Assembly (NCBI GenBank): GCA_015064155.1
Contig: SVST01000004.1
Coordinates: forward strand, 1-64,000
Direction: 5' to 3'
Length of the DNA: 64,000 nucleotides
Source: Oscillospiraceae bacterium
GTDB lineage: Bacteria; Bacillota; Clostridia; Oscillospirales; CAG-272
Both the position numbers and the translations under genes were made by a program. Positions 13,865 through 39,000 of the stretch are shown here, piece after piece (the first letter of the stretch is position 1; each line of letters starts with the position of its first letter). The notes below the pieces were generated by a model, which searched no databases, was not told where the DNA came from, and worked only from the letters and a program-made list of their open reading frames with translations.

Positions 13865-13877
13865 ATAACACAAAAAA

Positions 13878-13969: not shown

Positions 13970-14494
13970 ATGAAACGATCGATCGGACTGTGGCAGTTGA
14001 TGGGATTCTCCGTCACGTCGCTTGCGGGAACACTGTTGCATTTTTTATACGATTGGCTGAAAAAGGCGGCATGGATCGCGCCGTTTTCGGGAGTCAACGA
14101 ATCTACCTGGGAGCACATGAAGCTGCTCTTTTGGCCGATGCTTCTTTATGCCGCGGTACAGAGTCGGTTCTTTCGCGAGCGCAACGATTTTTGGTGTGTC
14201 AAGGCAAAAGGAACGCTTTTGGGGCTGTCCTTAATCCCCGTGCTGTTTTACACGTATAACGGCGTCATCGGGCATTCCCCCGATTGGATCAACATCACCA
14301 TCTTTTTCATTGCCGCAGCAATCTCCTATCTCTACGAAACACGGCAGTTTAACGGAGAATCGACGTCTTGCAAAAGACCCACGTATGCACTCGCTCTGCT
14401 CTGTGTCATTGCGGTTTTGTTCGTCGTATTCACCTTTCAAGCCCCCAAGATCGGAATCTTCAAGGATCCGCTAACCAGCACGTATGGAATATAA
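13970..14494 (+). CDS. DUF6512-like integral membrane protein
   Basis: This 174-residue protein has about five hydrophobic segments and the phrases LLHFLYDWLKKAAWIAPFSG, VNESTWEHMKLLFWP and YTYNGVIGHSPDW, which I associate with the DUF6512 family of uncharacterised Clostridia membrane proteins. The ATG at 13970 is chosen for the GAGG 6 bases upstream; the frame stays open further up without a good start. It stands alone between two terminators. No function can be assigned. Confidence 0.75.
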   Translation: MKRSIGLWQLMGFSVTSLAGTLLHFLYDWLKKAAWIAPFSGVNESTWEHMKLLFWPMLLYAAVQSRFFRERNDFWCVKAKGTLLGLSLIPVLFYTYNGVIGHSPDWINITIFFIAAAISYLYETRQFNGESTSCKRPTYALALLCVIAVLFVVFTFQAPKIGIFKDPLTSTYGI

Positions 14495-14498
14495 AAAC

Positions 14499-14535
14499 AG
14501 CCGATGAGAGATCAAAAGGTCCCTCATCGGCTTTC
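14499..14535. terminator. Hairpin terminator between DUF6512 gene and GH20 gene
   Basis: AGCCGATGAG and CTCATCGGCT pair around GATCAAAAGGTC, followed by TTTCC. It lies between a plus-strand gene ending at 14494 and a minus-strand gene ending at 14590, and may act in both directions. Confidence 0.7.
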
Positions 14536-14589
14536 CTGATTGCGTCACCCGTTCCGTCGGATCGGGGTACGTTGTCGTTTTTCTTTCCG

Positions 14590-16479
14590 TTATGCGCGGG
14601 GGTCAATGCGGCTGGGAGATACGTAACGGCCGTAGTGATTCAATTCGTACGGACCCTCGCGGTCAAGGTACAAGCGCTCGGCATCCAGCTCCTCGATGGT
14701 TTCCAGCTTGCCGTCAAGGTATGCCCGAACCTCTCGGATCGCACTGTCAATGCGAGCCAGGAGCGAGCCGTAACGCATATCCAGGATATCCCATCCAAAG
14801 GGCTTGTAGAGCTCCATCCAGTTCTCCATGTGAGCAAGTCTTTGTGTCTTGACACGCTCGAACAATTCGGGAAGCTCTACCTCAACAAATCTTCTCAACG
14901 CCTCCTTGTCCCCTGCCCGATAAGCCGCGGTCAGGCGCAAGCCCATCTCGGATTTCATCGACAGCGTATGGGAAACCAACGCGGAATAGGCAAACAGACT
15001 GTCAAAGCGTCCGTTTCTGCCAACCGCGCTCTCCAAAACGGGAGTTAACGCGCGATAGTGTGCATCCAGATTTGCGTTCTCGTAGTTCTTGTCTGCAAGA
15101 CCCGTCAGAATATCCTGCCACATCATAATTTTAGAGGTGTTGCAATGGTGACGCTTGGGATGGTTCAGGCTCTTGATCCAATCGGTGAGATCCAACCGCT
15201 GCAGGTTTTCGAAATCCTCCAGATTACCGCCCGTGCAGAATTTGAAACGGCGGGCGAAGCGATCGCGGTCGTAGCCGTCGGCATAACCGAGCTCGGCAAA
15301 CAGCTGACATCCGATCAGGTTAACGGTTGCCAACGATTCGGTACCGTTATCTCCCCAGGTTGTCATAAAGATATCCTTGACGCCGCACGCACGGCAAGCA
15401 CTCAATGCGTCCAGCGTAGATCGCAACGTGTGATCCCATGCCAAGCCAAATCCGCGCCAAGCCCAGCAGCCGCCGGCAAAGACCAAATCCTTGTCCAAAA
15501 GCAGATGCTTTCTGAGAAGTGCCTCGTACTCCCCTTGACCGACGGTATAGTAATCCCAATAGATGCAATTCATGCCCTTGGGAAGCGATTCGTACGCATC
15601 GTCGGGAACCGGTGCATACGGATCGTGGTACTTCTGCCCTGCCGTACGGAAGAACATATCGTCCCACATCATCGGGGTAAGCCCCAATTCACGCACCAGC
15701 TCCATCACGCGTGCAAGATGCTTTTTCATGATCGCATTGGGTTTTTCGTAGCCGTTTTGATCAATATATTTGCCTCTGCCGAGATTCCAAGCCTCATCCA
15801 GACCTACGTGAATCCGTTTGGTGCGGAACGGTGCGCTTGCCGCAACCAACAGGTCACGGATAAAGTCGTAGGTTTCCTCCTTGCCGACGAGCAAGCAGGC
15901 ATCGTAATCGCGAATGTCGTCGAAGCAAGCCCAGCGAAGTCCGTCGGGCATGTGTGCAAGCGTTTGGATGCAGGGAATCATTTCGATGCCCAAGGTCCAT
16001 GCGTACTCATCCAGCTCGGAAAGCTCCTTTTGCGTATAGGTCGGGCGCATGTATCCGAAATACGGACGTCCCGGAACCTCATAGTTATCCTCGGTATAAA
16101 GCATCAGGGTGTTCAAGCCCATAAGCGCAAGAGAACGAATCACGTCCTTGAGCGTTTTGACGTGAAATGCCGCATTGCCCTGCGACATATCAAACATGGG
16201 ACCGTTCATACGGAACGCGGGCTTCTCCTCCAAGCAAAAGCTCTGTTTCCCGTCGTTCATCGCCTCCACGGCAAGACCGAACGCACGGAAAAATTGGCAA
16301 CGCTCACAGTAAACGATTTCCAGTGCGTTTCCGTCGAGCGTGACGCGCAGAGTTGGTGCTTCCACGCGCTTTGCCGTCAATACGTAACCGCCGTCGGCAA
16401 GCTCAATTCCAAGCTCGGGGGCAAGCAGTGCAACACCCTCTTGAAGTTGGTCAAGATCACCCTTTAATATAAATCTCAC
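14590..16479 (-). CDS. GH20 beta-N-acetylhexosaminidase, cytoplasmic type
   Basis: The 629-residue protein has a small N-terminal alpha/beta domain (about 1-85), then a TIM barrel with KRIHVGLDEAWNLGRG near residue 220, in which Asp-Glu is the GH20 catalytic pair, and a helical C-terminal region. It resembles GcnA-type hexosaminidases of similar length. There is no signal peptide, so it probably removes terminal GlcNAc or GalNAc from imported oligosaccharides in the cytoplasm. The start is GTG with GGAGG 8 bases upstream. It is transcribed alone, convergent with the preceding gene. Confidence 0.85.
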   Translation of the reverse strand: MRFILKGDLDQLQEGVALLAPELGIELADGGYVLTAKRVEAPTLRVTLDGNALEIVYCERCQFFRAFGLAVEAMNDGKQSFCLEEKPAFRMNGPMFDMSQGNAAFHVKTLKDVIRSLALMGLNTLMLYTEDNYEVPGRPYFGYMRPTYTQKELSELDEYAWTLGIEMIPCIQTLAHMPDGLRWACFDDIRDYDACLLVGKEETYDFIRDLLVAASAPFRTKRIHVGLDEAWNLGRGKYIDQNGYEKPNAIMKKHLARVMELVRELGLTPMMWDDMFFRTAGQKYHDPYAPVPDDAYESLPKGMNCIYWDYYTVGQGEYEALLRKHLLLDKDLVFAGGCWAWRGFGLAWDHTLRSTLDALSACRACGVKDIFMTTWGDNGTESLATVNLIGCQLFAELGYADGYDRDRFARRFKFCTGGNLEDFENLQRLDLTDWIKSLNHPKRHHCNTSKIMMWQDILTGLADKNYENANLDAHYRALTPVLESAVGRNGRFDSLFAYSALVSHTLSMKSEMGLRLTAAYRAGDKEALRRFVEVELPELFERVKTQRLAHMENWMELYKPFGWDILDMRYGSLLARIDSAIREVRAYLDGKLETIEELDAERLYLDREGPYELNHYGRYVSPSRIDPRA

Positions 16480-25068: not shown

Positions 25069-25806
25069 ATGCTGATGATCAGCCGACAGCTTGAAATTTT
25101 AGAGATTCTGAAAAAGCAAAAAAGCGTAAGTGTGGCAGAGCTCTCGCGGAAGCTGTTTGCCAGCGAGCCGACCGTTCGCCGCGACCTTGCTTATCTGGAA
25201 AAGCAAGGGTATCTCAAACGGGTCTACGGCGGTGCGATTCTCGGAGGTGCCCCCGACAGAGAGATTCCTTACGAAATCCGTTCGGGAGAGCAGGAGGATG
25301 CCAAAGCGATGATCGCACGGCGCGCCGCAGCCTATCTGCACAAGGGGGACGTGGTCTTTTTGGACGGTTCTTCGTCCGCTGCGCGCATGGTAGAGCCGAT
25401 CAAGGAAATCGGAGATATCTTGGTGGTCACAAGCGGTGCCAAAACCGCAATTGCGCTTGCAGAAGCCGGCATTCGCGTCATCTCCACGGGCGGACAGATG
25501 CGTACTCGCTCCTTTACCTACGTCGGAAATCACGCCGAGGCCTGCGTGCGCTCGATGCGTGCCGACACCGTCTTCTTCTCCTGCAGAGGCTTGTCCGACG
25601 ACGGAGAAATGACCGACGTTTCCATCGATGAGATCAATTTGCGCCGCGCTATGCTGGAACGCGCGCGTGTGAAAATTCTGCTGTGTGACAGCAGTAAATT
25701 CGGCAAACAGTATATGTATTCGCTCGGCTACCGCGAAAATCTGGATGCCGTGATATCCGAAACGACAGAAACAAATTCAAAAAGCAGAAAAGGAGACGCA
25801 CCGTGA
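25069..25806 (+). CDS. DeoR-family transcriptional regulator
   Basis: The 245-residue protein has an N-terminal DeoR helix-turn-helix (SVAELSRKLFASEPTVRRDL, about residues 20-40) and a sugar-phosphate sensor domain (DEINLRRAMLERARVKILLCDSSKFG near the C-terminus). The ATG at 25069 follows GGAGG by 8 bases; the long upstream extension of the frame has no start signal. Its stop overlaps the GTG start of the first isomerase (GTGA), so it probably controls the two TIM-barrel genes, using a phosphorylated sugar as signal. It resembles the DeoR protein at 47.2 kb. Confidence 0.9.
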   Translation: MLMISRQLEILEILKKQKSVSVAELSRKLFASEPTVRRDLAYLEKQGYLKRVYGGAILGGAPDREIPYEIRSGEQEDAKAMIARRAAAYLHKGDVVFLDGSSSAARMVEPIKEIGDILVVTSGAKTAIALAEAGIRVISTGGQMRTRSFTYVGNHAEACVRSMRADTVFFSCRGLSDDGEMTDVSIDEINLRRAMLERARVKILLCDSSKFGKQYMYSLGYRENLDAVISETTETNSKSRKGDAP

Positions 25807-26738
25807 AGCTCAGTATTCAAAACGAAACCCTGATGAAGTATTACGGGATGGAGGACACCTATTCGATGATCCGCGAAGCGGGATTTGAAGCCATCGATTG
25901 GGATCTCTCTGGCACTTGGGATTTCGACGAGGTCAAAAAAGCCAAAAAATTGGAGGGGCTTTCTCTGTTTGATAAGTCCCCCGAGGAGGTTCGTAACTAT
26001 TACGAGAAAGAGTTCGCCATCATCAAAAAGAACGGGCTGACCATCGAGCAGGCACACGCACCCATGGAATGCTATGCGCCGGGGCGTCCCGACGTTTTGG
26101 AATATGCCATCTCGATTTACAAAAAGATCATCCCCTTTTTGGACGAGATCGGATGTAAGTACCTGATTGTACACGGACTGACCAAAAACGAACAGATGGA
26201 GGATCTTACGCCCGAGGAAGCCGTCAGACTCAACCTGCATCTGTATGAGAGCCTGATTCCCGAATTGCAACAGGCAAAGCAGCTCAAGGTCTGTCTGGAA
26301 AATCTGCCCACCGACTCCATGCTGCTCGGCAGATGCTTTTGGATCGGATGCTGTTCAAACCCGTACATTGCCGCCGAATGGATCGATCGGCTCAACGAAA
26401 AGGCAGGCAAACAATGCTTTGGTCTTTGCCTTGACACGGGGCATTTGAACGTGCTTCGCATTCCTTTCCACGACTACATCCCGATTCTCGGTAAGCGTAT
26501 CCTTTGCGTCCATATTCACGATAACAACCAGAATTCCGACAGCCATCTGGCACCCTACGCAGGCTCGATCTTTTGGAAGGATTTCCTGATCGAATTGAAG
26601 AAAGTGGGATATTCCGGCAACATCAATTTCGAAACCTGCGCGCAGACCAGCGCAAACCGCGTACCGCGCGAGCTGACCCCCACCTTCCTGCGTCTGTTCA
26701 ATTCCGTGGGACAGTATTTCCGCGCACAGCTGCAATAA
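25803..26738 (+). CDS. Sugar phosphate isomerase/epimerase-like TIM-barrel protein, copy 1
   Basis: The 311-residue protein has the xylose-isomerase-like (AP endonuclease 2) fold pattern: MIREAGFEAIDWDLS, ITIEQ-type substrate strand AHAPMECYAPG, VCLENLP, GLCLDTGHLNVL, CVHIHDNNQNSDSHL and INFETCAQ, with the His, Asp and Glu metal ligands retained. It starts with GTG, overlapping the DeoR stop. The substrate is unknown. It is paralogous to the next gene along its whole length. Confidence 0.85.
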   Translation: MKLSIQNETLMKYYGMEDTYSMIREAGFEAIDWDLSGTWDFDEVKKAKKLEGLSLFDKSPEEVRNYYEKEFAIIKKNGLTIEQAHAPMECYAPGRPDVLEYAISIYKKIIPFLDEIGCKYLIVHGLTKNEQMEDLTPEEAVRLNLHLYESLIPELQQAKQLKVCLENLPTDSMLLGRCFWIGCCSNPYIAAEWIDRLNEKAGKQCFGLCLDTGHLNVLRIPFHDYIPILGKRILCVHIHDNNQNSDSHLAPYAGSIFWKDFLIELKKVGYSGNINFETCAQTSANRVPRELTPTFLRLFNSVGQYFRAQLQ

Positions 26739-26751
26739 GGAGGAGAATGGC

Positions 26752-27687
26752 ATGAAAATCAGTGTACAGTCGCAACGTCTGACCGGTCAGTACGGCATCG
26801 AAAAGGCATACCGCTACATTCGCGAGGCGGGATTTGAAGCCATCGATTGGAACATCGATACCGAATGGAAATTCGAAGCGGTAAAGACGGCAAAAGAACT
26901 CCAAAATCTTTGTATTTTTGAAAAATCCCAAGAGGAAATCGACGCATATTTTGCCGCCGAGCTTGCCGAGATCCGCAAAAACGGGCTTGCAATCACGCAG
27001 GCGCACGCACCGTTCGGATGCTATGAGTCGCGCCGCCCCGACATTTTGGAATATGCCATCTCAATCTACAAAAACATGATTCTGTTTTTGGATCGCGTGG
27101 GCTGTCAATACGTCGTCATCCACGGCATTTCCAAGCGAGAGCTGTGGGAGGAAACGCAGGAGGAGATTGATGCGCTCAACCGTCACCTCTACGAAAGCCT
27201 GATTCCCACCCTGCAACAAACCAAGCAGATCACGGTCTGCCTGGAAAATCTCTTTTCGGGTACGATCAAACTGGCGCGCGGTGTTTGGGAGGGACATTGC
27301 TCCGACCCGCACCTTGCCGCCGCGGAAATTGACCGCCTCAACAGCTTGGCAGGCAAAAAGTGCTTCGGACTTTGCCTGGATACGGGACACCTCAACCTCT
27401 TGCGCAAGCCGATGCATTCCTATATTCCGATCGTCGGAGATCGCATCGTATGCCTGCACATCCACGACAATCTGCAAAATGCCGACAGCCACATGATGCC
27501 CTACGTCGGCTCGATCTGGTGGAAGTACTTCCTGGAGGAAATGAAAAAGATCGGATACGCGGGTGACCTCAGCTTTGAAACCTTTGCACAGGTCGATCAA
27601 AAGCGACTGCCCGAAGAGCTGCTCCCCGCATTCCTCTGCGCCATTGCCGATATCGGAAAGTATTTCAAAACGCAATTGGAGCAATAA
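26752..27687 (+). CDS. Sugar phosphate isomerase/epimerase-like TIM-barrel protein, copy 2
   Basis: Also 311 residues and clearly a tandem duplicate of the previous gene (YIREAGFEAIDWNID, AHAPFGCYESRRPDILEY, VCLENLF, FGLCLDTGHLNLL, CLHIHDNLQNADSHM, SFETFAQ). It starts 13 bases after copy 1, with AAGGAGG upstream. Equal length and shared metal ligands suggest both are active, possibly on related substrates. It ends the operon, followed by a terminator. Confidence 0.85.
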   Translation: MKISVQSQRLTGQYGIEKAYRYIREAGFEAIDWNIDTEWKFEAVKTAKELQNLCIFEKSQEEIDAYFAAELAEIRKNGLAITQAHAPFGCYESRRPDILEYAISIYKNMILFLDRVGCQYVVIHGISKRELWEETQEEIDALNRHLYESLIPTLQQTKQITVCLENLFSGTIKLARGVWEGHCSDPHLAAAEIDRLNSLAGKKCFGLCLDTGHLNLLRKPMHSYIPIVGDRIVCLHIHDNLQNADSHMMPYVGSIWWKYFLEEMKKIGYAGDLSFETFAQVDQKRLPEELLPAFLCAIADIGKYFKTQLEQ

Positions 27688-27738: not shown

Positions 27739-27957
27739 CAATCGTCACTCCAAGGGCATGTTATCATCGCAGCCAAAATCATCCTTCAACAAAAGATCCC
27801 AAGCAAAAGCTGTAATTTCGATGAATTGTCAATGATTACGAAAAGTCTGCGCACTTATTTTCAGTGAACGTACATAACAATGGTATAATGTTTAGCAGTG
27901 GTTATCTTACTAAAAAACGGTGACCGCTGTTATATTTTTATCAAAGGAAGTGGAACA

Positions 27958-28887
27958 ATGTTATACAAAGAATGGCTGTCAAATTGGCTTGAAAACTATG
28001 TGAAACCGTCGGCAAAAAGGCGGACTTATACTCGTTATAAGGAGATTGTGGAACAACATATAAATCCGCAACTTGGTTATTTGGAACTATCTGAAATGAC
28101 ACCGTATGTGCTCCAATGTTATATAACAAGCCTGTTGAAAAACGGTAATTTACGCACAAGCAAAGGGTTGTCTGCAAACTCCGTAAATTCGATTATTACA
28201 GTCATACAGAACACCTTAAAAACGGCATACTCGCTCGGTCTGATTGGTGAATATGTGGGAGATAAGATTAAACGCCCGCGAGTAAGCGAAAAGAAAGTTG
28301 AGTGCTTTTCTATCAGCGAGCAAAAGAAGATCGAACAATTTATTTTGAATGAAAAAAACACGAGATTCTTTGGCGTTTTGCTCTGCTTGTATACAGGGCT
28401 TCGAATCGGTGAACTGTTAGCGTTGGAATGGTCGGATATTGATATGAGCAAGGGTGAGCTTCAAGTAAACAAGACATGCCATTATGGAAAAGATGAGAAC
28501 GGTGTGTTCCGTCGGATTACCGATGTTCCAAAAACACAAGCCTCCATTCGCACCATACCAATCCCAAAGCAGTTGATGCCGTATTTGCGGGAGGCAAAGA
28601 AAAAGAGCTGTTCAACACACATCGTATCAAACGGCTCAACCCCTATGTCAACCAGATCGTATCAACGCAGCTTTGCTTCGATACTCCAAAAACTCAACAT
28701 TCAACACCGTGGGTTTCACTCCTTGCGGCATACATTCGCAACGCGCGCGTTAGAATGCGGAATGGATGTCAAAACCTTGGCGGAGATCCTCGGTCATAAA
28801 AATCCGACAGTAACGCTGAATCGGTACGCACACTCTTTAATGGATCATAAAAAGGAAATGATGAACAAGCTGGGGAAGATTTTATAG
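27958..28887 (+). CDS. Tyrosine recombinase (phage-type integrase)
   Basis: The 309-residue protein has an N-terminal SAM-like core-binding domain (about 1-110; LYKEWLSNWLENYVKPSAKRR) and a C-terminal catalytic domain with all signature residues: Arg in YTGLRIGELLALEW, HSLRHTFATRALE (His-x-x-Arg), LGHKNPTVTLNRYAH (His and the Tyr nucleophile). It would integrate or excise the island that follows. The ATG at 27958 with AAGGAAG upstream is preferred to an upstream GTG. An extended -10 TGGTATAAT lies at 27881-27889. Base composition drops to AT-rich from here on. Confidence 0.93.
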   Translation: MLYKEWLSNWLENYVKPSAKRRTYTRYKEIVEQHINPQLGYLELSEMTPYVLQCYITSLLKNGNLRTSKGLSANSVNSIITVIQNTLKTAYSLGLIGEYVGDKIKRPRVSEKKVECFSISEQKKIEQFILNEKNTRFFGVLLCLYTGLRIGELLALEWSDIDMSKGELQVNKTCHYGKDENGVFRRITDVPKTQASIRTIPIPKQLMPYLREAKKKSCSTHIVSNGSTPMSTRSYQRSFASILQKLNIQHRGFHSLRHTFATRALECGMDVKTLAEILGHKNPTVTLNRYAHSLMDHKKEMMNKLGKIL

Positions 28888-29114: not shown

Positions 29115-29705
29115 ATGACACAAGCAGTTGCAATTACTTGTCCCGGATGCGGCGAAAGATTAACACTTGAAATGAAAAAATGTCCCTCTTGTCACGGTCC
29201 TGTTACGATTTCAACGTTCAATAGCGTATATTCCATGTCACCATTAGACACCAATAAATATGCTAACACCTACAGAAAGGCCTTGAGTGAGAACCCGGAC
29301 GATAAAAGACTCCATATTTCCGTTGCCATGTGCTATTTGAAGTTGAACTTATACGATAAGGCACTGCCCGCTTTTGAAAAGGCAATAGAGGATAATTTTG
29401 ATAATTCCGAGGCTTTCTTCTACGCGGCCGTTTGCCTTCTGAAAGGTAAAAAGGCGTTTTTACAACCCCGCCCTATCATTGACAAAATCATGGAATACAT
29501 TGATGCCGCGATAATGATAGAACCCAAAGGGATTTATTATTACTTTTTGGCTTACATCAAGTACGATTTTTTTGCACGGAAATCGTACATTACCTCTCCC
29601 AATTACGAAGAAACCTTGATTATGGCAAAGCAAGCGGGATTCACCGATCTTGATACTGCCCAACTTTTCGATATTTTGCGCGTAGAAAAGCCCGGTTGCT
29701 TGTAA
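29115..29705 (+). CDS. Zinc-ribbon and TPR-like helical protein (island gene 1)
   Basis: The 196-residue protein has an N-terminal zinc ribbon with two CxxC pairs (CPGCGERLTLEMKKCPSC, residues about 9-26), then helical repeats of TPR type (LHISVAMCYLKLNLYDKALP, AFEKAIEDNFDNSEAFFYAA). There is no membrane segment. It is the first gene of the island operon, 45 bases before the HerA-like ATPase, and may act as an adaptor. The ATG follows AAGGAAC; an upstream TTG is less likely. I do not recognise the full-length family. Confidence 0.7.
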   Translation: MTQAVAITCPGCGERLTLEMKKCPSCHGPVTISTFNSVYSMSPLDTNKYANTYRKALSENPDDKRLHISVAMCYLKLNLYDKALPAFEKAIEDNFDNSEAFFYAAVCLLKGKKAFLQPRPIIDKIMEYIDAAIMIEPKGIYYYFLAYIKYDFFARKSYITSPNYEETLIMAKQAGFTDLDTAQLFDILRVEKPGCL

Positions 29706-29750
29706 TTTCAAAATTTTACCACCCTCGCTACGATGGAAGGAGAATCTATT

Positions 29751-32438
29751 ATGGAAAACCGTATTTCTTTTGAACCACTAACAAACGGCGAAGGTGTTGC
29801 CTTGGGAGTAATTGAAATTACGTCTATCCCTCACATTTCTATCATTGATCCCCGTGCAAAGGCTGATGACATTGTAGAGAGATACAAAAATGAAATAAAT
29901 GGATTGCTTACCGAAGTTCATCAGATCTACAAAGATGTAAGCGTAAAAGACCAATCCTATAAAGATATTGCTTTGGAACTTTTGTGGACAACCCACGAGG
30001 TAAAAAACCAACCCTACAATGCGGAAATCAAGCTTTTTATAATTGTGAGAAGCATTGATGCAAATGAGAAAAAAGCAAAAGGGTTGGTGTCAAGCCTTCT
30101 GAAAATATTCAAGACTACACTTCATTCTCAGCGATATGAAATCAAAGAAAGCTCGTATAACGATATTTCGCCAATTATATCGAATATAAATGACAATAGT
30201 ATAACGGCCATTGTCAAAGATGAGAAAGTTTCTAACCTTCAAAATGCCGCGTTGCCTTATTGCTATGCATTTGATAAAATCTCGTCATCAAACAACTTTA
30301 GTAAAATCGTTGGCTCACTGATTGACTATTCCAATTGTGCAATATCCGTTCAGTTGATGCCCACCACCTTCACAGCCCAAGAATCAACCGAGTTAGATAG
30401 AATCACACAGGTATTGGATACGTTGAGCCACGGTGTAATGGAACACGGTATCGGACACGTCAGCTTCACCTTGGCAAAAAAGCATTCTGATACTTATCGC
30501 TATTACGCATCGCACAAATCAATGCCGTTATATCTTTTTAACGTCTTGATTTACGGCGACCAAGAGGCTGTAACTCATATTGCCGCCCAGCTCTCGGGAT
30601 TTTTAGCAACAAGCGGCGACCAAACAACAAGCTTGAAGCTTGTTTCGTTACAAAAAAATGAGGTAAATAAAGATAACAATTTCTATCCTTTACCGTGGGC
30701 TATCAATGAAGTTTTGATGCAAATTAAGCATCGCAACTCTCCGCTTTGGAACTCCCGTCAATTCTCTAAAGCTTTATATCGTTTACCTTATGTTATTGGA
30801 GGCGATGAGGCTGCTTCTTTCTTTAGACTTCCCGTTGGAAGCATGAACGTTTCTGCCGGGTTACAGATAAATCAGTCCAACAAAGGCGAGAAAAAATACA
30901 CCGATAATATCATTAACTCCGGTGATATTATCGTGGGCAAATTAAGATCCTCTTCAAACGGTGATACGATTGGTTTTTCTCTTAAAGATCTTGCCAAGCA
31001 TATGCTCGTTGTAGGCACTCCCGGTTCAGGAAAAACAACCTTCTCCGTCAGCTTGCTTGATAGACTTTGGAAAGACCATCATATTCCGTTCTTGGTAATA
31101 GAACCTGCAAAAAATGAATACCGAGCGTTGGTTCAAAGCATTCCCGAATTACAAGTGTTTACCCCCGGGAAAAATTTTATATCCCCTTTCGTATTCAATC
31201 CCTTTGTTCCTCCCAAAAACGTAAAACTTGAAACATATAAATCCACACTGAAAACAGCATTCGCAGCCGCCGTTTCGATGTCAACCCCTCTGGATAAGAT
31301 TTTCGAAGAATCCATCAATAACTGCTATTCTGATTTCAGATGGGTGGATACATATACAGTTGATGATAAAGGCAAAACATTCAACATCGCAGACTTCATC
31401 AAATGTTTCCAACAAACATTTGATGAAATCGGATATACAGGTGATGCAAAAAACATTGGACGCGCAGGCGTAGTTCGTTTGAATAGCCTTGTGAATCTTT
31501 TCGATAATTATCACTCTATTCCTATCGAAGATCTGTTGCAAAAGCCTACGATTATTGAACTTGCTGCGATTGAAAATTCAGATCAAAAGGCTTTGATTAT
31601 CTCTTTGTTGCTTTTGTCAATTTTGGCTTATGTAAATGCTAACTATGTTGGCGAAGGCGGCTTGAAAAATGTGATTATGCTTGAAGAAGCACACGTCCTT
31701 TTGGATTCTGATAGCAACAAAGGCGAAGGCGAAGCCAATCCAAGTGCAATAGCGCAAGGGCTTGTCAAACGAATGTTGGCAGAAATTCGGTCTTATGGTG
31801 TTGGATTGGTAATAGCCGATCAATCACCGCGGAAAGTGACAACCGATGTTGTGGCACTCACGGATATGAAGATGGTGTTCCGATTAGTTGAAGGTGCCGA
31901 CAAGCAAATCATGAGTGACAGTACCAATATGTCCGAGGCGCAGAGCCAACGAATGTCCAAATTAAAGCCCGGCGAAGCATTCTTGTTCTTCAACAAATTG
32001 GACGAGCCGGAAGAAGTGATAACACCCGATTACAGGCTTGAAAACAACATAAGCATATCGCTCTCCGATGCAGGTATAAAAGAATTAACAACCTATTGGA
32101 ACGATAAATCGGACAAATTAAGACCTTATCCCCAATGTGCATATTGTCAAAGTTGTTCAAACGGTTGTGACTACTATAGGCGTGTTCTTGCTCGTGAAGT
32201 TGCACGGCGTATTTTTGTGAGAAACTTTAAGCCAGCCGATGATAAATTTGACGTAGTTATAAAAGTGTTTGGTCGAATAAGCAAACTTGTATGCGACGAA
32301 CTCAATGATGAACCGTTCACTCCCGAATTGTTGTCTTGTGTAAAGTTGCATTTATGGCGAAAAATCAAATACGGTACAAAAATACCAATTAAAGACATTC
32401 AAATCGAAAACTCTTTGAAAAAGGTTAAGGAGAAATAA
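29751..32438 (+). CDS. HerA-like (DUF87) ATPase with a C-terminal Cys cluster (island gene 2)
   Basis: The 895-residue protein has an N-terminal region of about 370 residues without recognised motifs, then a HerA/FtsK-type ATPase: Walker A VVGTPGSGKTTFS (about residue 420), Walker B NVIMLEEAHVLLD (about 640), and a downstream sensor-type segment VIADQSPRKVTTDVV. Near residue 796 is CAYCQSCSNGC, a CxxCxxCxxxC cluster that could hold Fe-S or zinc. HerA-type hexamers move DNA or other polymers; no NurA-type nuclease is nearby, so a DNA role is not established. The second ATG is chosen for the GGAAGGAG 8 bases upstream. Confidence 0.8.
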   Translation: MENRISFEPLTNGEGVALGVIEITSIPHISIIDPRAKADDIVERYKNEINGLLTEVHQIYKDVSVKDQSYKDIALELLWTTHEVKNQPYNAEIKLFIIVRSIDANEKKAKGLVSSLLKIFKTTLHSQRYEIKESSYNDISPIISNINDNSITAIVKDEKVSNLQNAALPYCYAFDKISSSNNFSKIVGSLIDYSNCAISVQLMPTTFTAQESTELDRITQVLDTLSHGVMEHGIGHVSFTLAKKHSDTYRYYASHKSMPLYLFNVLIYGDQEAVTHIAAQLSGFLATSGDQTTSLKLVSLQKNEVNKDNNFYPLPWAINEVLMQIKHRNSPLWNSRQFSKALYRLPYVIGGDEAASFFRLPVGSMNVSAGLQINQSNKGEKKYTDNIINSGDIIVGKLRSSSNGDTIGFSLKDLAKHMLVVGTPGSGKTTFSVSLLDRLWKDHHIPFLVIEPAKNEYRALVQSIPELQVFTPGKNFISPFVFNPFVPPKNVKLETYKSTLKTAFAAAVSMSTPLDKIFEESINNCYSDFRWVDTYTVDDKGKTFNIADFIKCFQQTFDEIGYTGDAKNIGRAGVVRLNSLVNLFDNYHSIPIEDLLQKPTIIELAAIENSDQKALIISLLLLSILAYVNANYVGEGGLKNVIMLEEAHVLLDSDSNKGEGEANPSAIAQGLVKRMLAEIRSYGVGLVIADQSPRKVTTDVVALTDMKMVFRLVEGADKQIMSDSTNMSEAQSQRMSKLKPGEAFLFFNKLDEPEEVITPDYRLENNISISLSDAGIKELTTYWNDKSDKLRPYPQCAYCQSCSNGCDYYRRVLAREVARRIFVRNFKPADDKFDVVIKVFGRISKLVCDELNDEPFTPELLSCVKLHLWRKIKYGTKIPIKDIQIENSLKKVKEK

Positions 32439-32440
32439 AA

Positions 32441-34159
32441 ATGGGTGACGAATACGATAGCTCCGTAGATGTATCAGACATTGATACATCGAGCGATTCG
32501 TCGGCTGATGATTCCGTTGATACTCCTTCCGATGATTATTCGGAAAGCACAGATGATTTTTCCGAGGATACATCAAGCAATGATGATGAAGAAATAACGG
32601 ATGCCATACCAGACGAAATAACCGAAGATACATATGATGACTCAACAACTGACCTTGCCGAGGATAATTTTGATGTTCCCGAAGATATTGAAGAAAATAT
32701 ATCTTCTGAAAACTTTGAAGAAACGACGGAAGATATACCCGAGGATATTTTGGAGGACACGGAAGAAGAGATCGTTGAGGAGTCCCAAGAAAGCACCGAC
32801 GACAGTTTTGATGACATACCCGAAGATACTGAATCGGATGAAACCGAAGTTGAAGTATCCTCTGATATTCCCGAAGAAGTTGAAGAAGACGTTGAACCTG
32901 AAGTTACCGATGAGATTGTGGAAGAAGCCGAAGTTGTTGATGAACCTGACGAAGCAGAACCTACTGACGATCTTACAGAGCAAGAAACCGGGGCAGTTGA
33001 TGAAACCACCGAGATAGAACCTGCCGAAGAAGTTGCAGAGGAAGATGCTGAGGTCGTTGATGAAATCGAAGAAGCGGAAACCGCTGACGAACTTGCCGAG
33101 GAAGAAACCGAGGTGGTTGAAGAAACCGCCGAAGCCGAAACCGCTGACGAACTCGCGGAGGAAGAAGCTGAGGTTGTTGATGAATCCACCGAAGCAGAAA
33201 CCGCTGATGAACTCGCCGATGAAGAAACCGAAGTGGTTGAAGAAACCGCAAAAGCGGAAACCGCTGACGAATTTGCCGAGGAAGAAGCCGAGATTGTTGA
33301 CGAAACGACTCAAGCAAAAACTACCGATGAATTATTGAAAGAGGAAGCCGAGGTCGTTGATGAAGTTGACGAAGTAGAACCTGCCGAGAAGCTTACAGAG
33401 GAAGAAACCAAGGTCGTTGATGAAACCGCCGAAGCCGAAACCGCTAACGAACTTACAGAGGAAGAGGCAGAGGTTGTGGATGAATCCGTCGAAGCGGAAC
33501 CCGCCGACGAACTCGCTGAGAAAGAAGATCTCACCAAAGCAGTTTCAAGCAATACACATTTTGGAACCACTATTGATGGTGGCAAATCAAGTGGCGGTGG
33601 AGGCAATTTTGTATGTCCTGCGTGTCAACAATCGCCGTGTGTATGTAACGAAAATGCTGATGGTGGCAAAAATCTTAAAGAGATCAACAATGACCGGCCC
33701 AACTTCTTTAAAAGAATATGGGATAAAACAAAACCAATTCGAACGTTCGGTAATGTTGTAGCCACGGTTGCATCCGCGGCGATACCATCTGCGACGGAAG
33801 CTCCAAAAAATCAGTATGTAGATACAATTCCTAAAACGGAAATTGTCCGTCCCATAGAGAATTATAAAACCGATAGCAGAAAAACAAAGCAAGAAAAGCT
33901 CAACGAGGATTTCTCAAAAATGGAATCCAAGAAAAAAAGCAACAATGATGTAATACCACAGACGGCAGAGCGCGCAGGCAGCAGTGGCGATACTCCCAAT
34001 TCTTCTCCGGATTTTGAAATTATCGAGGATGAAGATGGATTGCCAACAGAAATTATCGTACATGCAAAATCACAGCAAGGATTGAAATCCGTGTCGGAGG
34101 ATGGTGTTCCGATATATCGCAGAAAAGCAAATGCAGACCACCTTGACGTCAGCGATTGA
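32441..34159 (+). CDS. Highly acidic repeat protein with a Cys-rich motif (island gene 3)
   Basis: This 572-residue protein has an N-terminal half almost entirely Glu/Asp/Ser/Thr/Val, with about ten 20-residue repeats (EEAEVVDE..EAE.ADEL pattern) at residues 159-358. The C-terminal part has a Gly-rich linker, CPACQQSPCVC (possible zinc site, about residue 388), a basic stretch NFFKRIWDKTKP, a short hydrophobic segment and a charged tail. No signal peptide is visible. It starts 2 bases after the ATPase stop with AAGGAG upstream. Function is unknown; such an acidic chain could act as a spacer, DNA mimic or ion binder, but these are guesses. Confidence 0.7.
   Translation: MGDEYDSSVDVSDIDTSSDSSADDSVDTPSDDYSESTDDFSEDTSSNDDEEITDAIPDEITEDTYDDSTTDLAEDNFDVPEDIEENISSENFEETTEDIPEDILEDTEEEIVEESQESTDDSFDDIPEDTESDETEVEVSSDIPEEVEEDVEPEVTDEIVEEAEVVDEPDEAEPTDDLTEQETGAVDETTEIEPAEEVAEEDAEVVDEIEEAETADELAEEETEVVEETAEAETADELAEEEAEVVDESTEAETADELADEETEVVEETAKAETADEFAEEEAEIVDETTQAKTTDELLKEEAEVVDEVDEVEPAEKLTEEETKVVDETAEAETANELTEEEAEVVDESVEAEPADELAEKEDLTKAVSSNTHFGTTIDGGKSSGGGGNFVCPACQQSPCVCNENADGGKNLKEINNDRPNFFKRIWDKTKPIRTFGNVVATVASAAIPSATEAPKNQYVDTIPKTEIVRPIENYKTDSRKTKQEKLNEDFSKMESKKKSNNDVIPQTAERAGSSGDTPNSSPDFEIIEDEDGLPTEIIVHAKSQQGLKSVSEDGVPIYRRKANADHLDVSD
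32915..33514 (+). repeat. Ten tandem 60-bp in-frame repeats
   Basis: Units of exactly 60 bases encode 20-residue acidic repeats, with starts at 32915, 32975 and so on to 33455. Units 4-7 are most alike, while outer units diverge, as expected for expansion by recombination or slippage. The unit count may vary between strains. Confidence 0.8.
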
Positions 34160-34236
34160 AACGGAGGCGCGACGGAAGATTTGTTAAGAAAAGCAATAGA
34201 TAAAAAGTTCAAAATATAAAACGGAGGTAAGACTAA

Positions 34237-35433
34237 ATGGGACTTTTTAAGAAAAACCCCAATGAAGCAGCTTATCACGAAGGGCAAAAGCATTTTACCG
34301 ACGTGATAAAAAACACCGCACCCGGTGAGCTGCTGCTTTGGAGGCAACCCGAGGAGGATTTTAATACAAATTCTACCCTCATTGTTATGCCCGGAGAAAA
34401 GGCAATCTTTATCAAAGGCGGTACGGTTGAGCAAGTATTTGAAAATGGTACATATAAGCTCTCAACCGAGAACTATCCGTTCATTAGCAGACTGCGCAAC
34501 ATTCTTACGGGTGGTATCAGCACGTTCAATTGTGTTGTTTATTTCGTTAGAACGGCACATAGCATTGAAATTCGTTGGGGGACCGATTCACCGATTCAAG
34601 TACGCGATAAGATGCTTGGCATTGCTACGAAGCTTCGTTGCAGAGGTTCGTATAAAGTTGCTATCGAAAACCCTGCAAAATTCCTTGAAAAGCTGGTTGG
34701 AAACAATATTCCTTTTCAGTTTCAAGAGCAGTTGGATGATTATTTCATATCGGAATTCCAAAGCAAAATCAAATCTATTATTGCAAGAGCATTAAATGAA
34801 TCCAACACCGAGCTGTTGGGAATAGATGCTCGTTTAGACGAGTTCTCCGATATGATTCAGCCGTATATGCAAGAAACGCTTGATCATTACGGCTTGCGTT
34901 GTGTGAAATTCGTGGTTTCTGCGATTGACGTTGACGATGACGTTCTTCGTAGAAGATACGATGAAATCGGAATGAACGCATACGAGGAAAGAAGGATGGC
35001 AAATGCCAAGACTATGAGCCAACGTGAGTCGATGGATGTTCTTGGTGACGATTGGGGGAAACAGCAATCGGCTGAAATTCTTCGTGATTTAGCAAACAAT
35101 CCCGGCGCAGGTGGAATCGGTGCTATGGGTGCGGGAATGGGGATGGGTATGGCGGCAGGTTCGGTTTTCGGCAATATGGCCAACCAAATGTTCGAGCCGA
35201 TGGCAAACAGTCCTCGTCAAAGCGCTACCCCTTTGGCAACACCTGTTGGAGCTCCTTCGGGTAGGTTTACTCAACAATCGGCTGCCCCGCAACCGACAGC
35301 AGAAGCTTCAATGCCCGCTGCAACAGAAGACCCCGTTGAAACGCTTGCCAAGCTAAAACGTATGTTGGACGCAGACTTGATCAATCAAAGCGAATACGAT
35401 GCTAAAAAAGCAGAAATATTGAGCCGTATATGA
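34237..35433 (+). CDS. SPFH/band-7 protein with C-terminal SHOCT motif (island gene 4)
   Basis: The 398-residue protein resembles YdjI-type SPFH proteins: an N-terminal GLFKKNPNEA, LLWRQPEEDFNTNSTLIVMP near residue 35, the SPFH core (about 45-240), a helical stretch, a Gly/Met-rich low-complexity segment (about 288-310; GAMGAGMGMGMAAGSVFG), and a C-terminal SHOCT motif ETLAKLKRMLDADLINQSEY. SPFH proteins form membrane-associated ring-like oligomers and often scaffold partner complexes. AACGGAGG precedes the start. It suggests that the island system assembles at the membrane. Confidence 0.85.
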   Translation: MGLFKKNPNEAAYHEGQKHFTDVIKNTAPGELLLWRQPEEDFNTNSTLIVMPGEKAIFIKGGTVEQVFENGTYKLSTENYPFISRLRNILTGGISTFNCVVYFVRTAHSIEIRWGTDSPIQVRDKMLGIATKLRCRGSYKVAIENPAKFLEKLVGNNIPFQFQEQLDDYFISEFQSKIKSIIARALNESNTELLGIDARLDEFSDMIQPYMQETLDHYGLRCVKFVVSAIDVDDDVLRRRYDEIGMNAYEERRMANAKTMSQRESMDVLGDDWGKQQSAEILRDLANNPGAGGIGAMGAGMGMGMAAGSVFGNMANQMFEPMANSPRQSATPLATPVGAPSGRFTQQSAAPQPTAEASMPAATEDPVETLAKLKRMLDADLINQSEYDAKKAEILSRI

Positions 35434-35444
35434 GGTGAATGAGT

Positions 35445-36122
35445 ATGAGAAAAAATATTATAAAAGGTACTCTTTGCGCGATATTTCCGTTTTTATTCAA
35501 CGTAATCTTTTTTGCGTTTGGAGGCACCCACCATCCCGCGTCGGTTTGGATTTCTTATGCTTGGATACACGTTGCGTATCTTATCATGATTGCGACTCCA
35601 TTGCTTTCCGGAAAAGCAAAAAGTGCAATGATTTACAATTTTGCTACCGGTCAAATATCCACGCTGTACTTCGGAGTTGAATTGATTATCGGACTGATTT
35701 TTATTTTCATCGGTGTAAACAGTGTCAAGGTGCCGATTATCATCCAATTAATTCCTTTCTGCTTGTTTTTGCTTATCTTTTTAAGCATCCTGCTACACAA
35801 CGAACATAGCGCAGACAACGAGAAAAGAAGAATGGTTGAGATTGCCTTTATCAAATCAGCAGCCTCTCAGACCAAAATTTTGATGGAACATACTTCAGAT
35901 CCGACTTTGAAAAATAAGATCGAAAAGATTTACGATTTGATTCATTCAAGTCCTTCCAGATCAAACCCCTCTGCAAAAGCACTTGAAACCAATGTTATGA
36001 TGATGTTGAATGACTTGGAATTGCTTTTAGAGGAAAACAAGCTTGATGATGCAAACCGGCTCATCGGTAAAATTCACTACACAATGGAAAAACGCAACCA
36101 AATCGTTGCCTTTTCAAATTAA
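35445..36122 (+). CDS. Four-helix membrane protein with cytoplasmic tail (island gene 5)
   Basis: The 225-residue protein has four hydrophobic segments in the first 120 residues and a soluble helical C-terminal half of about 105 residues (SAASQTKILMEHTSDPTLKN, LNDLELLLEENKLDDANRLI). The ATG at 35445 has GAGGTG about 7 bases upstream; an ATG 6 bases earlier is possible. I do not recognise the family. It starts 11 bases after the SPFH gene, so co-translation is likely. Confidence 0.65.
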   Translation: MRKNIIKGTLCAIFPFLFNVIFFAFGGTHHPASVWISYAWIHVAYLIMIATPLLSGKAKSAMIYNFATGQISTLYFGVELIIGLIFIFIGVNSVKVPIIIQLIPFCLFLLIFLSILLHNEHSADNEKRRMVEIAFIKSAASQTKILMEHTSDPTLKNKIEKIYDLIHSSPSRSNPSAKALETNVMMMLNDLELLLEENKLDDANRLIGKIHYTMEKRNQIVAFSN

Positions 36123-36150
36123 AATTTTTTAACAAAAGGAGAGTAAGAAA

Positions 36151-37215
36151 ATGGAAAAATTGTTGGATTGGATTTCGGAAAATCCGTTATGGCTGTTTGT
36201 TATTATTTTATTCATAGCAATCACTTTCATTTCCAGCATCAAAAAAGAAAGTGCTAACGCAAGTAGCGGTTCTTCTAACGGAAACCAAAACGGAAACCAA
36301 AACGGAAATAAAATGCCCGGTACGAATGCCGCAACCGCCAATATCGGTGACACGGATAAAACCGAAGTTGTATACGGCTATTACCGTCAACAGGAAAATG
36401 AGCAAGTTGTCGTTAAAAGAACCGATGAGCAACAACGCATTGTTGACGAATATTTCATTGTTCGAAACATCAAAACTACCACGTGCAATTCTGCATTGAA
36501 GAAAAGAGCCAAGAGCCTCAAAACAGCTTCTAATTTTTTGCTTTTACCCGGTTTGGCAGTTACCGTATTGGGCTTTATCGGATCCAAGATGCCCCTTATT
36601 TTGATCGGCGTTGTTGCCGTTATTACAGCGATTATTCTCAAATATCTCAGCAGCGATTCGATGAAAAAATTCGAAGAAAGCATTAAGGTTTCGGTTGCGC
36701 CTAAAAAGCTGATGACAGACGAGGAATACGAAAAGCTGGTTGACAAAAAAATTCAGGACATGAATATTGAGCAGCTTGGATTGGAGAAATTAGGGTTGGA
36801 TCCCGACCAAGTCAAGGAAATTCGTCCCATCGTTCTCAGAGATAAGTCATTGACCAAGCATTCTTTTAGGGTATATAGTGAAAAAGGGCGTTCCGTTCAT
36901 TCTTCCACACAATATGTTACGTATCTTTATTTTACCGACGATCAGTTGTTTGTATATAAGATCCAGTTTGACATGTGCTGCAATATGCAGGATGAGTGGG
37001 CTCATGAATTCTTCTATAAGGATATTTGTGATATCCAATCGTATACATATAAAAACATTTTGAAGTTTGATTCGTTCAGCTACGAATACAGCACGGTATC
37101 GTTTAACATCGTTTCGTCCAACTCTAAAATCGGTTTTGAAATCGACGGAGCTAATGAAAATGTTGGTTCTATCCAAGCAATGAAACAAAAAATCCGAGAG
37201 AAGAAGGCTCAGTAA
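36151..37215 (+). CDS. Membrane protein with central helix pair and beta-rich C-terminus (island gene 6)
   Basis: The 354-residue protein has one N-terminal membrane helix (WLFVIILFIAITFISSI), an Asn/Gly-rich linker with a repeated GNQN motif (about residue 45), two central hydrophobic segments (about 127-165), then a soluble domain of about 190 residues with alternating strands and helices (STQYVTYLYFTDDQLFVYKI). The C-terminal domain resembles PH-like folds only loosely. AAAGGAGAG lies upstream. No known family is recognised. Confidence 0.65.
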   Translation: MEKLLDWISENPLWLFVIILFIAITFISSIKKESANASSGSSNGNQNGNQNGNKMPGTNAATANIGDTDKTEVVYGYYRQQENEQVVVKRTDEQQRIVDEYFIVRNIKTTTCNSALKKRAKSLKTASNFLLLPGLAVTVLGFIGSKMPLILIGVVAVITAIILKYLSSDSMKKFEESIKVSVAPKKLMTDEEYEKLVDKKIQDMNIEQLGLEKLGLDPDQVKEIRPIVLRDKSLTKHSFRVYSEKGRSVHSSTQYVTYLYFTDDQLFVYKIQFDMCCNMQDEWAHEFFYKDICDIQSYTYKNILKFDSFSYEYSTVSFNIVSSNSKIGFEIDGANENVGSIQAMKQKIREKKAQ

Positions 37216-37236
37216 TTTTGCCGTTAGAGGAGTAAC

Positions 37237-37704
37237 ATGGATGCTTTCATAGATGCTTTAACAGATGCTTTTCCTTTCATAGCAATAGCCGCAATCGGGT
37301 TCCTATTTCTTACGGTAATGGAGATATTTTTATTTTCAAAATTTGATAACAACAAAAATATTTCTACGAACGACGTAAATTCCGATTCACTCGCCGAACC
37401 TCATTCTCAAGATGCTAATTGGGGTAAAATGGTAATGCGTGTGGATGGCGTGATGAACATAACGGGACGAGGCATTGTAGCAACGGGAACCATTCAAAAC
37501 ATTCCGATTAACGTAAATGAGCGTCTGAATATTTTCGACGAGGAAGGAAATATTCTTGAAGTAAACGTACTTGTCAAAGAAATTTTGAAATTTTGTACAA
37601 TCGTTGTTAACCGTGCAGAGCCCGGCGAATTTGTTGGCATATTGCTTGACGTAGAGGAGGGTTTACTTCGCGAAGGACTCATTCTGAAAAAACGTAACGG
37701 GTAA
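37237..37704 (+). CDS. Membrane-anchored protein with EF-Tu domain-2-like barrel (island gene 7)
   Basis: The 155-residue protein has one N-terminal membrane helix (FPFIAIAAIGFLFLTVMEIF) and a soluble domain that reads like the second beta-barrel of translation GTPases: VDGVMNITGRGIVATGTIQN, then a strand pair, EFVGILLDVEEGLLREGLIL. Compare the EF-Tu pattern ITGRGTVATGRV...AGDNVGVLLRG...RGQVL. No GTPase domain is present. The similarity is seen by eye and also resembles NfeD-type OB folds in layout. Function is unknown. Confidence 0.65.
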   Translation: MDAFIDALTDAFPFIAIAAIGFLFLTVMEIFLFSKFDNNKNISTNDVNSDSLAEPHSQDANWGKMVMRVDGVMNITGRGIVATGTIQNIPINVNERLNIFDEEGNILEVNVLVKEILKFCTIVVNRAEPGEFVGILLDVEEGLLREGLILKKRNG

Positions 37705-37718
37705 TATTGGAGGTAACT

Positions 37719-38085
37719 ATGGACGGTTTCATGTATATTTTGCCCGCGATCTTAATCGTGGCAATGGTAAATTCCTCGTTTTCAAGCTAAAAGGCAACGG
37801 AAGCAGTTCCGCTACTCCTGATCGAGTAGCGGCTGCCGTGCCGATTACAGCGGACCCAAAAAGGATGTCGTTATTCAAGATTTTGGCTCAAAAAAGCTTG
37901 ATGTTATTAAGTATGTAAGAGAAGCAACGGGTTATAGTCTTAAAGAAGTTAAAGAAGTTGTTGAAAGCAGAGGAACAATCAAAGGGCTCCCCATTGAAGC
38001 CGCCGAAGGATTGGTTTCAACTTTGAACAGTATCGGTGCTTCAGCGGAAATGAAACAATTGATTACGAGGTGTTTATATGAATAA
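37719..38085 (+). pseudogene. Frameshifted membrane protein with L7/L12 C-terminal-like domain (island gene 8)
   Basis: A start with GGAGG at 37719 opens MDGFMYILPAILIVAMV, one membrane helix, then stops early. Continuation in another frame gives FLVFKLKGNGSSSATPDRVA, and a third frame from about 37860 gives SKKLDVIKYVREATGYSLKE and EVVESRGTIKGLPIEAAEGL, matching the ribosomal L7/L12 C-terminal domain pattern. One missing base near 37770 and one in the CCCAAAAA run near 37855 would restore a protein of about 121 residues. Either a decayed gene or two sequencing deletions. The next gene start overlaps its end. Confidence 0.7.
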
Positions 38086-38911
38086 TATTATGGATATTTT
38101 GCCTATAATTATCATTGTAATTATGGTATTCATTCTAATAGGCAAATTCAAGGGAAACGGTGTTACGAACAGTGCATCCGAAAACAGCTACAAAACAGCA
38201 AACGATATCTATATGCGCTGGAGTAAGGACAGCATAGCAGCTAAAATAGAACTTGCTTTTTCGACTATATACCTCCTTGGTATCATTCTTTTGGTGCTTT
38301 ACCTGGGATTCGGTGATAAGTTTGGTTTAGAGCCATTGATAGACCTTAAAGAGATGTTTGATTTTAAAAATAAGGATGACGAGGAAATCCTGGCATTCTT
38401 AACGAATGATTTGATCAAATATGTCATTTGGTTCCTTGGGGCATATATGGCATGCGGTCTTATAGCGATGATTTTAGGAACCAACTCGTTCTTTGATCAG
38501 GCAAAATGGTTGTCAAGAAATCAAGTGGATTGCTATGCTGTTTTGAAGAACGGAAACGGTAATAAAACATTTAACTTCCTTATCGGTAACGGATTTTTGA
38601 TTAAGGAAAGACCGGCAACCAAGAATATTTTTTACATCAGAATTGGAGCTCAGGTTGTAATTGATGTGTTAATGATTCTGTCCGTTTCTAAATTCCTTAA
38701 GAGCTTGATTTCTCAAACGTATGAAGCCTTTAAGGTATATGGAATGAAACCGGGTGAATGGGCAAAACAAGTTTTCACGTCATCAGAGGCACTTTTCTTC
38801 TATGCCGTGGTGATAGCTTCCTGGTCGTTGAATATTGGTATTAACAGAATTCTTCGTAACAAGCAAGCCGAACTGCTCAGTTCAGTTCCTCAAAATACGA
38901 ACGAAGAATAA
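38078..38911 (+). CDS. Multi-pass membrane protein (island gene 9)
   Basis: The 277-residue protein starts MNNIMDILPIIIIVIMVFIL, much like the N-terminal anchor of the preceding broken gene, so the two may share an origin. Further hydrophobic segments lie near residues 65-85, 118-138, 192-215 and 237-260, giving about five membrane helices. Its ATG overlaps the end of the previous gene. I do not recognise the family. It is the last gene of the island operon. Confidence 0.65.
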   Translation: MNNIMDILPIIIIVIMVFILIGKFKGNGVTNSASENSYKTANDIYMRWSKDSIAAKIELAFSTIYLLGIILLVLYLGFGDKFGLEPLIDLKEMFDFKNKDDEEILAFLTNDLIKYVIWFLGAYMACGLIAMILGTNSFFDQAKWLSRNQVDCYAVLKNGNGNKTFNFLIGNGFLIKERPATKNIFYIRIGAQVVIDVLMILSVSKFLKSLISQTYEAFKVYGMKPGEWAKQVFTSSEALFFYAVVIASWSLNIGINRILRNKQAELLSSVPQNTNEE

Positions 38912-38927
38912 AATCGAATAAGTACAA

Positions 38928-38971
38928 AAGGTCAATGAATCGTAGATTTTGAGTTACGATTCATTGACCTT
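38928..38971 (+). terminator. Strong hairpin at the right end of the island
   Basis: A perfect 17-bp stem, AAGGTCAATGAATCGTA paired with its complement, encloses a 10-base loop. Only a short T-rich tail follows, so it may stop transcription from both sides, separating the island operon from ddh. It could also be part of the attachment region. Confidence 0.65.
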
Positions 38972-39000
38972 CTTGTATAACACTACAAACAACCTATCCG

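Follow-up and report, generated by a model that had tools for sequence, protein, structure and literature searches.

A candidate polymorphic-toxin export operon with a VirB4-like ATPase and an SPFH protein on an integrase island of an Oscillospiraceae bacterium

What machine is encoded by the nine closely spaced genes that follow an integrase gene in the genome of an Oscillospiraceae bacterium (assembly GCA_015064155.1)? The genes occupy positions 29115–38911 of the first 64,000 nucleotides of contig SVST01000004.1, a stretch referred to here as the window. The original prediction, made from the sequence without database searches, described an AT-rich, unidirectional operon behind a tyrosine recombinase and left a role in defence, transport or stress open. 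We now think it fairly probable that the operon belongs to a family of polymorphic-toxin systems in which a VirB4-like ATPase motor with an SPFH protein as scaffold exports toxin-tipped effectors to competitors; several members of the family lie on integrative elements. Toxin export is favoured over that wider choice because the corresponding slot in related loci holds toxin-like genes with co-varying small genes, and because the ATPase is predicted to have the N-domain fold of a secretion ATPase. The operon itself was largely as described: the genes were found on the forward strand where they had been placed, the gaps between them are 27, 2, 77, 5, 28, 21, 14 and −1 bases, the GC content per kilobase is 0.37–0.47 across 28–39 kb as against 0.44–0.57 in the remaining window, and the gene at 27898–28887 (+) encodes the tyrosine recombinase/integrase of the island (PF00589, E 3.9e-28). 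Only eight of the nine genes are intact, however, the exception being the gene at 37719–38078.

At the core of the operon are a gene for an ATPase of 901 amino acids (29733–32438, +), a gene for an acidic protein of 572 amino acids (32441–34159, +) and a gene for an SPFH (Band_7_1) protein with a SHOCT-like end (34237–35433, +). The last of these had been recognised correctly (PF13421, E 2.4e-37; SHOCT, at 6e-6, lies just below the cut-off), and the protein is 48–74% identical to ten relatives. Eighteen close loci were available for comparison, namely 17 (L006–L022) from a pattern search of one genome per species (84,980 species; 48 stretches matched and 17 were confirmed, which gives no estimate of frequency) and one from a scan of viral contigs. 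The ATPases of the 17 loci, which come from Lachnospiraceae, Oscillospiraceae, other Clostridia, Paludibacter, Azobacteroides and Treponema, are 57–72% identical to that of the window, and that of the viral-contig locus is 54% identical. An SPFH gene lies downstream of the ATPase gene in all 11 close loci with 4 kb or more of sequence beyond it; L008, L009, L012, L013, L016, L019 and L065, with 1.65 kb or less, fall outside this count. The co-occurrence proposed as a check on the original prediction is thus a conserved linkage, and the suggestion of a multi-part membrane machine built on the ATPase and the SPFH protein is strengthened by it. Further partners recur: a protein with four transmembrane (TM) segments after the SPFH protein in nine of the ten close loci whose contig continues beyond it, a PH-like protein in 12 and a YidD-domain protein in 10 of the 17 loci for which upstream sequence was available (the two YidD proteins scanned with Pfam gave E 5.2e-14 and 4.5e-20), and a member of the zinc-ribbon/TPR family in 12 of the 18 close loci. 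The YidD protein is absent from the window operon. Close members were rare in the genomes sampled, the window's own being the only one among 147 relatives, 391 genomes of the class and 398 of the phylum; further ATPase matches, in three genomes of the relatives and 14 of the class, are distant. A pattern search for the SPFH protein in viral contigs gave 33 matches, none of them a relative.

The slot between the ATPase and SPFH genes is where the relatives differ, and it holds toxin-like peptidases and a nuclease together with the small genes. The first 250 residues of the slot protein are 22–48% Asp/Glu (13 relatives measured; L010, where a masked stretch leaves only the tip, was excluded from leader measurements). 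A complete effector gene is present in 11 close loci, all of which were scanned with Pfam (L010 in its tip alone). The C-terminal tips of L014 and L018 are zinc peptidases (L018 just under the Pfam cut-off), that of L017 is a WHH nuclease and that of L020 a papain-fold glutamine deamidase, whereas the L022 tip is without a class assignment. The L006 tip contains HExxH, resembles DUF6782 (E 0.0016) and matches the tip of a distant locus, L062, at 1.9e-31; the motif is present in every one of the seven tips that make up the two zinc-peptidase groups, as against 0.45–1.65% of shuffles per tip. L007, L010 and L021 have a common tip that belongs to no Pfam family and may be read as cysteine-peptidase-like from its Cys/His pattern. 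In L065 a zinc peptidase (DUF6782 E 4.5e-5, under the cut-off) is encoded on its own, and behind it come a small gene and a second acidic protein. By reading, the acidic proteins of L006, L012 and L014 also have in common a stretch of about 75 residues between leader and tip (DAIN..ADDYRDKG...FLDDAFPG), a possible pre-toxin domain. In L014 the ATPase is separated from the acidic protein by five tandem multi-TM proteins (12721–15834); of the two that were scanned, neither matched a Pfam family above its cut-off.

Similar genes accompany more distant ATPases. In 12 of the 18 distant loci (L047–L064) at least one of the three genes that come next is toxin-like or an immunity gene, with matches above the Pfam cut-off in 10 of these loci: a papain fold in L050 (1.1e-5), LHH with SUKH in L051 (1.2e-22), a nuclease with a YezG-like gene in L052 (1.9e-34), colicin DNase with SUKH in L053 and L063, WHH in L061 and, with SUKH, in L054, GH-E in L055 and L058, and a zinc peptidase in L056 (3.6e-7). 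The toxins of L057 and L062 were recognised through tip similarity, L059 and L064 have weak zinc-peptidase matches under the cut-off, and no toxin domain was found in L047, L048, L049 or L060. The partners vary, with SPFH in close loci, dynamin in L051 (Pfam E 8.1e-19) and Hsp70 with DnaJ in L047, where the distant ATPase and a 960-residue protein with an acidic start are followed by Hsp70 (E 9.5e-130), DnaJ-TPR and AAA-TPR proteins (6073–16001); this is possibly a chaperone-coupled version of the system. Two plasmids carry related arrangements. The Escherichia coli plasmid pTW10590_133 has, as annotated, genes for two dynamin-family proteins, a hypothetical protein, a superfamily ATP-binding protein, an HNH/ENDO VII nuclease and SMI1/KNR4, the ATPase being 27.5% identical over the motor part only. 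A Priestia plasmid has, after an ATPase with 32% identity over 84%, a long Asp/Glu-rich repeat protein.

Do tip and small gene belong together? The test took 21 tips that are followed by a small gene, giving 210 pairs, with similarity defined as blastp E < 1e-5; L017, L022, L011, L015 and the window lay outside it. Sixteen pairs were similar in the tip and 12 in the small gene, all 12 falling within the 16; the highest count in 20,000 label permutations was 7. In seven of the 12 co-varying pairs, for example L006/L062, L020/L050 and L014/L056, the ATPases are just 24–30% identical, a pattern that points to movement of tip and small gene between backbones as a cassette. Exchangeable C-terminal tips on a conserved N-terminal part, with a co-varying small gene adjacent, are the marks of polymorphic toxins (PMC3482391), and the slot tips of the relatives are presumably toxic.

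The ATPase had been called HerA-like with a Cys cluster, a description that applies to the motor (DUF87/HerA match E 3e-10; HerA 4d2i E 5.4e-9) and the C-terminal cysteines but not to the N-domain (residues about 8–390), for which the best match of the predicted model is VirB4. On the strength of that model, the protein would be the VirB4 ATPase by which a type IV secretion system is recognised. Walker A (GTPGSGKT), Walker B (LEEAH) and cysteines C802, C808 and C812 are invariant across 13 aligned sequences. In a tree of the ATPases, Bacillota are separate from a clade of Bacteroidota and Treponema, and the window ATPase is without firm placement. Recent transfer between phyla was considered and is not supported, since the tree keeps the phyla apart. 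Integrases resembling that of the window lie directly upstream of the system in three of the 17 loci L006–L022 (L010, L011 and L019; Pfam) and, together with relaxase genes near L010, L011 and L022, indicate that at least some copies are carried by integrative, probably mobilisable, elements.

Our current working hypothesis, for which gene linkage, tip variability and exchange, the co-variation of tip and small gene and the predicted VirB4-type fold are the basis in hand, is as follows. The VirB4-like ATPase would dock at the membrane through its N-domain, on a platform of SPFH, four-TM and PH-like proteins joined in many relatives by a YidD-type protein, and the zinc-ribbon/TPR protein would serve as adaptor or chaperone. 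The motor would grip the acidic, unstructured leader of the effector, the putative export signal, and push the effector into or across the membrane, so that it reaches competitors. The C-terminal tip would be the toxin that kills them, and the small gene behind it would encode an immunity protein that guards the producer.

Several observations weigh against this hypothesis. Pfam finds the tip at E < 1e-5 in only four of the 11 complete close-locus effectors, no tip is apparent by eye or by Pfam in L011 and L015 (two of the three small acidic genes of L015 were scanned), and six of the 18 distant loci are without a clear toxin. L017 has no small gene before the SPFH gene, four of the 16 tip-similar pairs (L007/L021, L014/L057, L053/L054 and L053/L061) have no common small gene at E < 1e-5, and the tip boundaries were set by eye. 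L016 shows no partner at all in its 3 kb of upstream and 1.6 kb of downstream sequence. The ATPase model is poor in its motor part, with pLDDT < 50 over most of residues 382–798. Pfam and NCBIfam revealed no VirB3, VirB6, VirB8, coupling protein or outer channel; since no channel subunit was recognised and the relatives include diderm phyla, no complete conduit is visible. Lastly, the window copy itself has no toxin tip recognised by Pfam or by comparison with the other tips, relatives and plasmids, and no adjoining immunity gene.

The acidic protein of the window occupies the toxin slot by position and composition: residues 1–375 are 45% Asp/Glu and 2% Lys/Arg, residues 376–572 form the tip, and just 77 bases separate its gene from the SPFH gene. 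The tip has no significant Pfam match and is unmatched in the 147 relatives (the window itself apart) and in 72,556 plasmids; against the other tips the best E value was 0.011 (L056a), which was not accepted as real. Pfam found no known trafficking domain (WXG, LXG, PAAR, PrsW and the like) in the gene, whose export signal, if any, may be a new one. With an unmatched tip and no neighbouring immunity gene, the window copy may carry either a toxin of a new type or none at all. The original statement that no nuclease or toxin is present therefore holds for the window copy, although not for the slot of its relatives, and toxin export is a weaker reading for this copy, one accessory gene of which is also broken, than for the family.

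One alternative explanation is an intracellular conflict system, in which the ATPase senses phage or plasmid DNA and frees the toxin tip in its own cell, the small protein being an antitoxin and the membrane proteins an anchor. In PADLOC the motor matched two kinds of defence-system protein, HerA and mads_8, at a best E of 1.3e-16, no export channel was recognised, a hydrophobic N-terminus was found in none of the 11 effectors tested, the window's included, and the window copy and several relatives adjoin integrases or relaxases. The PADLOC matches are nevertheless confined to the motor domain, with none for the eight other proteins scanned (the integrase among them; the broken gene lay outside the scan), so that the family scan did not yield a defence system. 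The effectors that partner HerA include SIR2, DUF4297 and NurA, and Pfam and PADLOC found none of the three among the window genes. The VirB4-type N-domain is also unexpected on this explanation, and SUKH/YezG-like immunity genes with exchangeable tip/immunity cassettes are marks of secreted polymorphic toxins (PMC3482391). We regard intracellular conflict as unlikely.

Alternatively, and with still lower probability, the genes might form a reduced conjugation or injection apparatus of a mobile element, with acidic polyvalent-type proteins entering the recipient together with DNA and their peptidase or nuclease domains acting there. The VirB4 fold of the ATPase would suit such an apparatus, as would weak MPTase-PolyVal matches in L006 (E 0.014) and L059 (E 0.0036) and relaxase genes near L010, L011 and L022 (PF03432, E 4.7e-34, 2.7e-32 and 3.6e-32). 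Relaxases were found near just these three close loci, however, Pfam detected neither relaxase nor coupling protein among the window's island genes, and polyvalent proteins are not expected to have paired immunity genes. Least likely of all is a system of the Bacillus YdjGHI type, serving membrane stress or lipid domains, in which toxin genes have landed by chance drift. PF13421 is the YdjI family of Bacillus-type stress operons, and SPFH relatives are common (found in 74 of the 391 genomes of the class, of which 15 have any ATPase match at all), but neither TPM (YdjH) nor PspA domains were found by Pfam among nine window proteins, the SPFH gene follows the ATPase in all 11 close loci counted and the co-variation of tip and small gene far exceeds chance.

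How does the proposed toxin exporter compare with known systems? A survey of polymorphic toxins published in 2012 describes routes through type II, V, VI and VII secretion systems, PVC, TcdB/TcaC, PrsW and MuF, and conjugation-derived type IV systems co-opted for toxins (PMC3482391). Its toxins share with the present family a constant N-terminal part, an exchangeable tip, an adjacent small gene and, for the distant relatives, SUKH/YezG-like immunity, but in the part of the text searched a lone VirB4-like ATPase with SPFH is not among the routes and the words SPFH, YidD, VirB4 and dynamin do not occur (PMC3482391). The leader of the present family is acidic, and no known trafficking domain was recognised in it. 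Compared with general type IV secretion (VirB4/TrwK), no VirB3/6/8/10, coupling protein or pilin was recognised here, and the partners are instead SPFH, PH-like, YidD and zinc-ribbon/TPR proteins. Some type IV secretion systems kill bacteria; these have the complete machinery, whereas no further VirB subunit was recognised here. Those of Xanthomonas and Stenotrophomonas have a VirB4-type ATPase and toxins aimed at other bacteria, as is proposed for the present family (PMC6759196). HerA-type ATPases of DNA repair and antiphage systems have the same motor domain, but the present ATPase differs in an N-domain that best matches VirB4 and in its C-terminal Cys cluster, and no NurA, SIR2 or DUF4297 partner was found for it. 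YdjI-type SPFH proteins share PF13421 but not the operon context, which here is without TPM or PspA. The loci with dynamin, HerA-like, HNH and SMI1 genes (pTW10590_133 and L051) resemble the close relatives in that the ATPase directly precedes nuclease and SUKH/SMI1 genes, and differ in having a dynamin-like membrane partner rather than SPFH.

As originally proposed, no named system was recognised in the set by Pfam, NCBIfam, PADLOC or PHROGs scans, and no paper describing an ATPase/SPFH/YidD toxin system was recognised among the matches listed from the full text of 5.39 million open-access papers (subscription papers are mostly outside that collection). The novelty would lie in the apparatus, which we could not find described, since polymorphic toxins themselves are already known. 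More tentatively, and at rather less than even confidence, we suggest that the loci represent an undescribed class of protein export, present in Bacillota, Bacteroidota and Spirochaetota. In it a VirB4-type ATPase, separated from the conjugation machine, would work on an SPFH/PH-like/YidD-type platform and export polymorphic toxins whose leaders are acidic and disordered, with sister versions in which dynamin or Hsp70/DnaJ replaces SPFH. If the export hypothesis is right, polymorphic toxins of anaerobic gut, rumen and termite lineages would have a new delivery route, SPFH and YidD proteins would have a concrete partner machine, and a VirB4-like motor would apparently be at work without the other parts of a type IV apparatus. 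The pairing of tip and small gene opens the system to direct testing in laboratory strains.

The remaining genes of the operon are mostly membrane-associated. The first (29115–29705, +) encodes a protein of 196 amino acids that had rightly been described as a zinc-ribbon/TPR protein (TPR_16 E 1.2e-8; the zinc ribbon, DZR, is weak at 8.3e-4). Of the five small membrane proteins predicted, four are intact: a four-TM protein with a helical tail (35439–36122, +; four hydrophobic stretches), a membrane-anchored protein with a predicted PH-like domain (36151–37215, +), a membrane-anchored protein with a domain resembling EF-Tu domain 2 (37237–37704, +; NCBIfam EF-Tu models E 1e-6, far below cut-off) and a further four-TM protein (38078–38911, +; hydrophobic stretches). 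Among the membrane proteins of the operon, the fold was predicted for the PH-like protein alone. Sequence searches of solved structures gave no match with the SPFH protein and, with the PH-like protein, four matches of which none was below E 0.15. The fifth gene (37719–38078, +) is either broken or an assembly error, because its membrane-anchor start does not share a reading frame with the ribosomal L12 C-terminal-like domain (37861–38070; PF00542, E 9.2e-15) behind it; a second L12-like place on contig 16 of the same genome, 46% identical, is presumably the ribosomal gene. EF-Tu and L12 meet on the ribosome, and neighbouring anchored genes at 37237–38078 thus carry two translation-type domains, the EF-Tu-like one weak. 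The last three genes of the operon have no relative in L006–L022; the EF-Tu-like protein has none in L065 either, and the protein at 38078–38911 is unmatched in the other 146 of the 147 relatives. A close relative of the SPFH protein was seen in L046 (8456–9517; profile E 1.8e-147) with no such ATPase in the 19.5 kb read; it lies beside three zinc-ribbon proteins and what look, from reading alone, like DUF262-like and type I restriction genes.

Directly past the operon lies a long hairpin, a possible terminator (38922–38978, +; fold −30.7 kcal/mol for 38906–38985), which was not among the results of the terminator scan; the promoter scan was at chance level (24 found, 25.7 expected). A 12-base direct repeat, TTCCTCAAAATA, at 29030 and 38886 was considered as marking the ends of the element and set aside as weak, since the integrase would fall outside. 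In a search for the empty site, the right-hand gene was found in 17 and the left-hand gene in eight of 25 relatives (E 1e-30 or better); this records gene presence without contig position and so does not establish an ancestral site. Left of the island, at 25803–27687, are two adjacent genes, 58% identical and sugar-isomerase-like by reading, with matches at E 1e-30 or better in eight of the 25 relatives, the window's genome counted.
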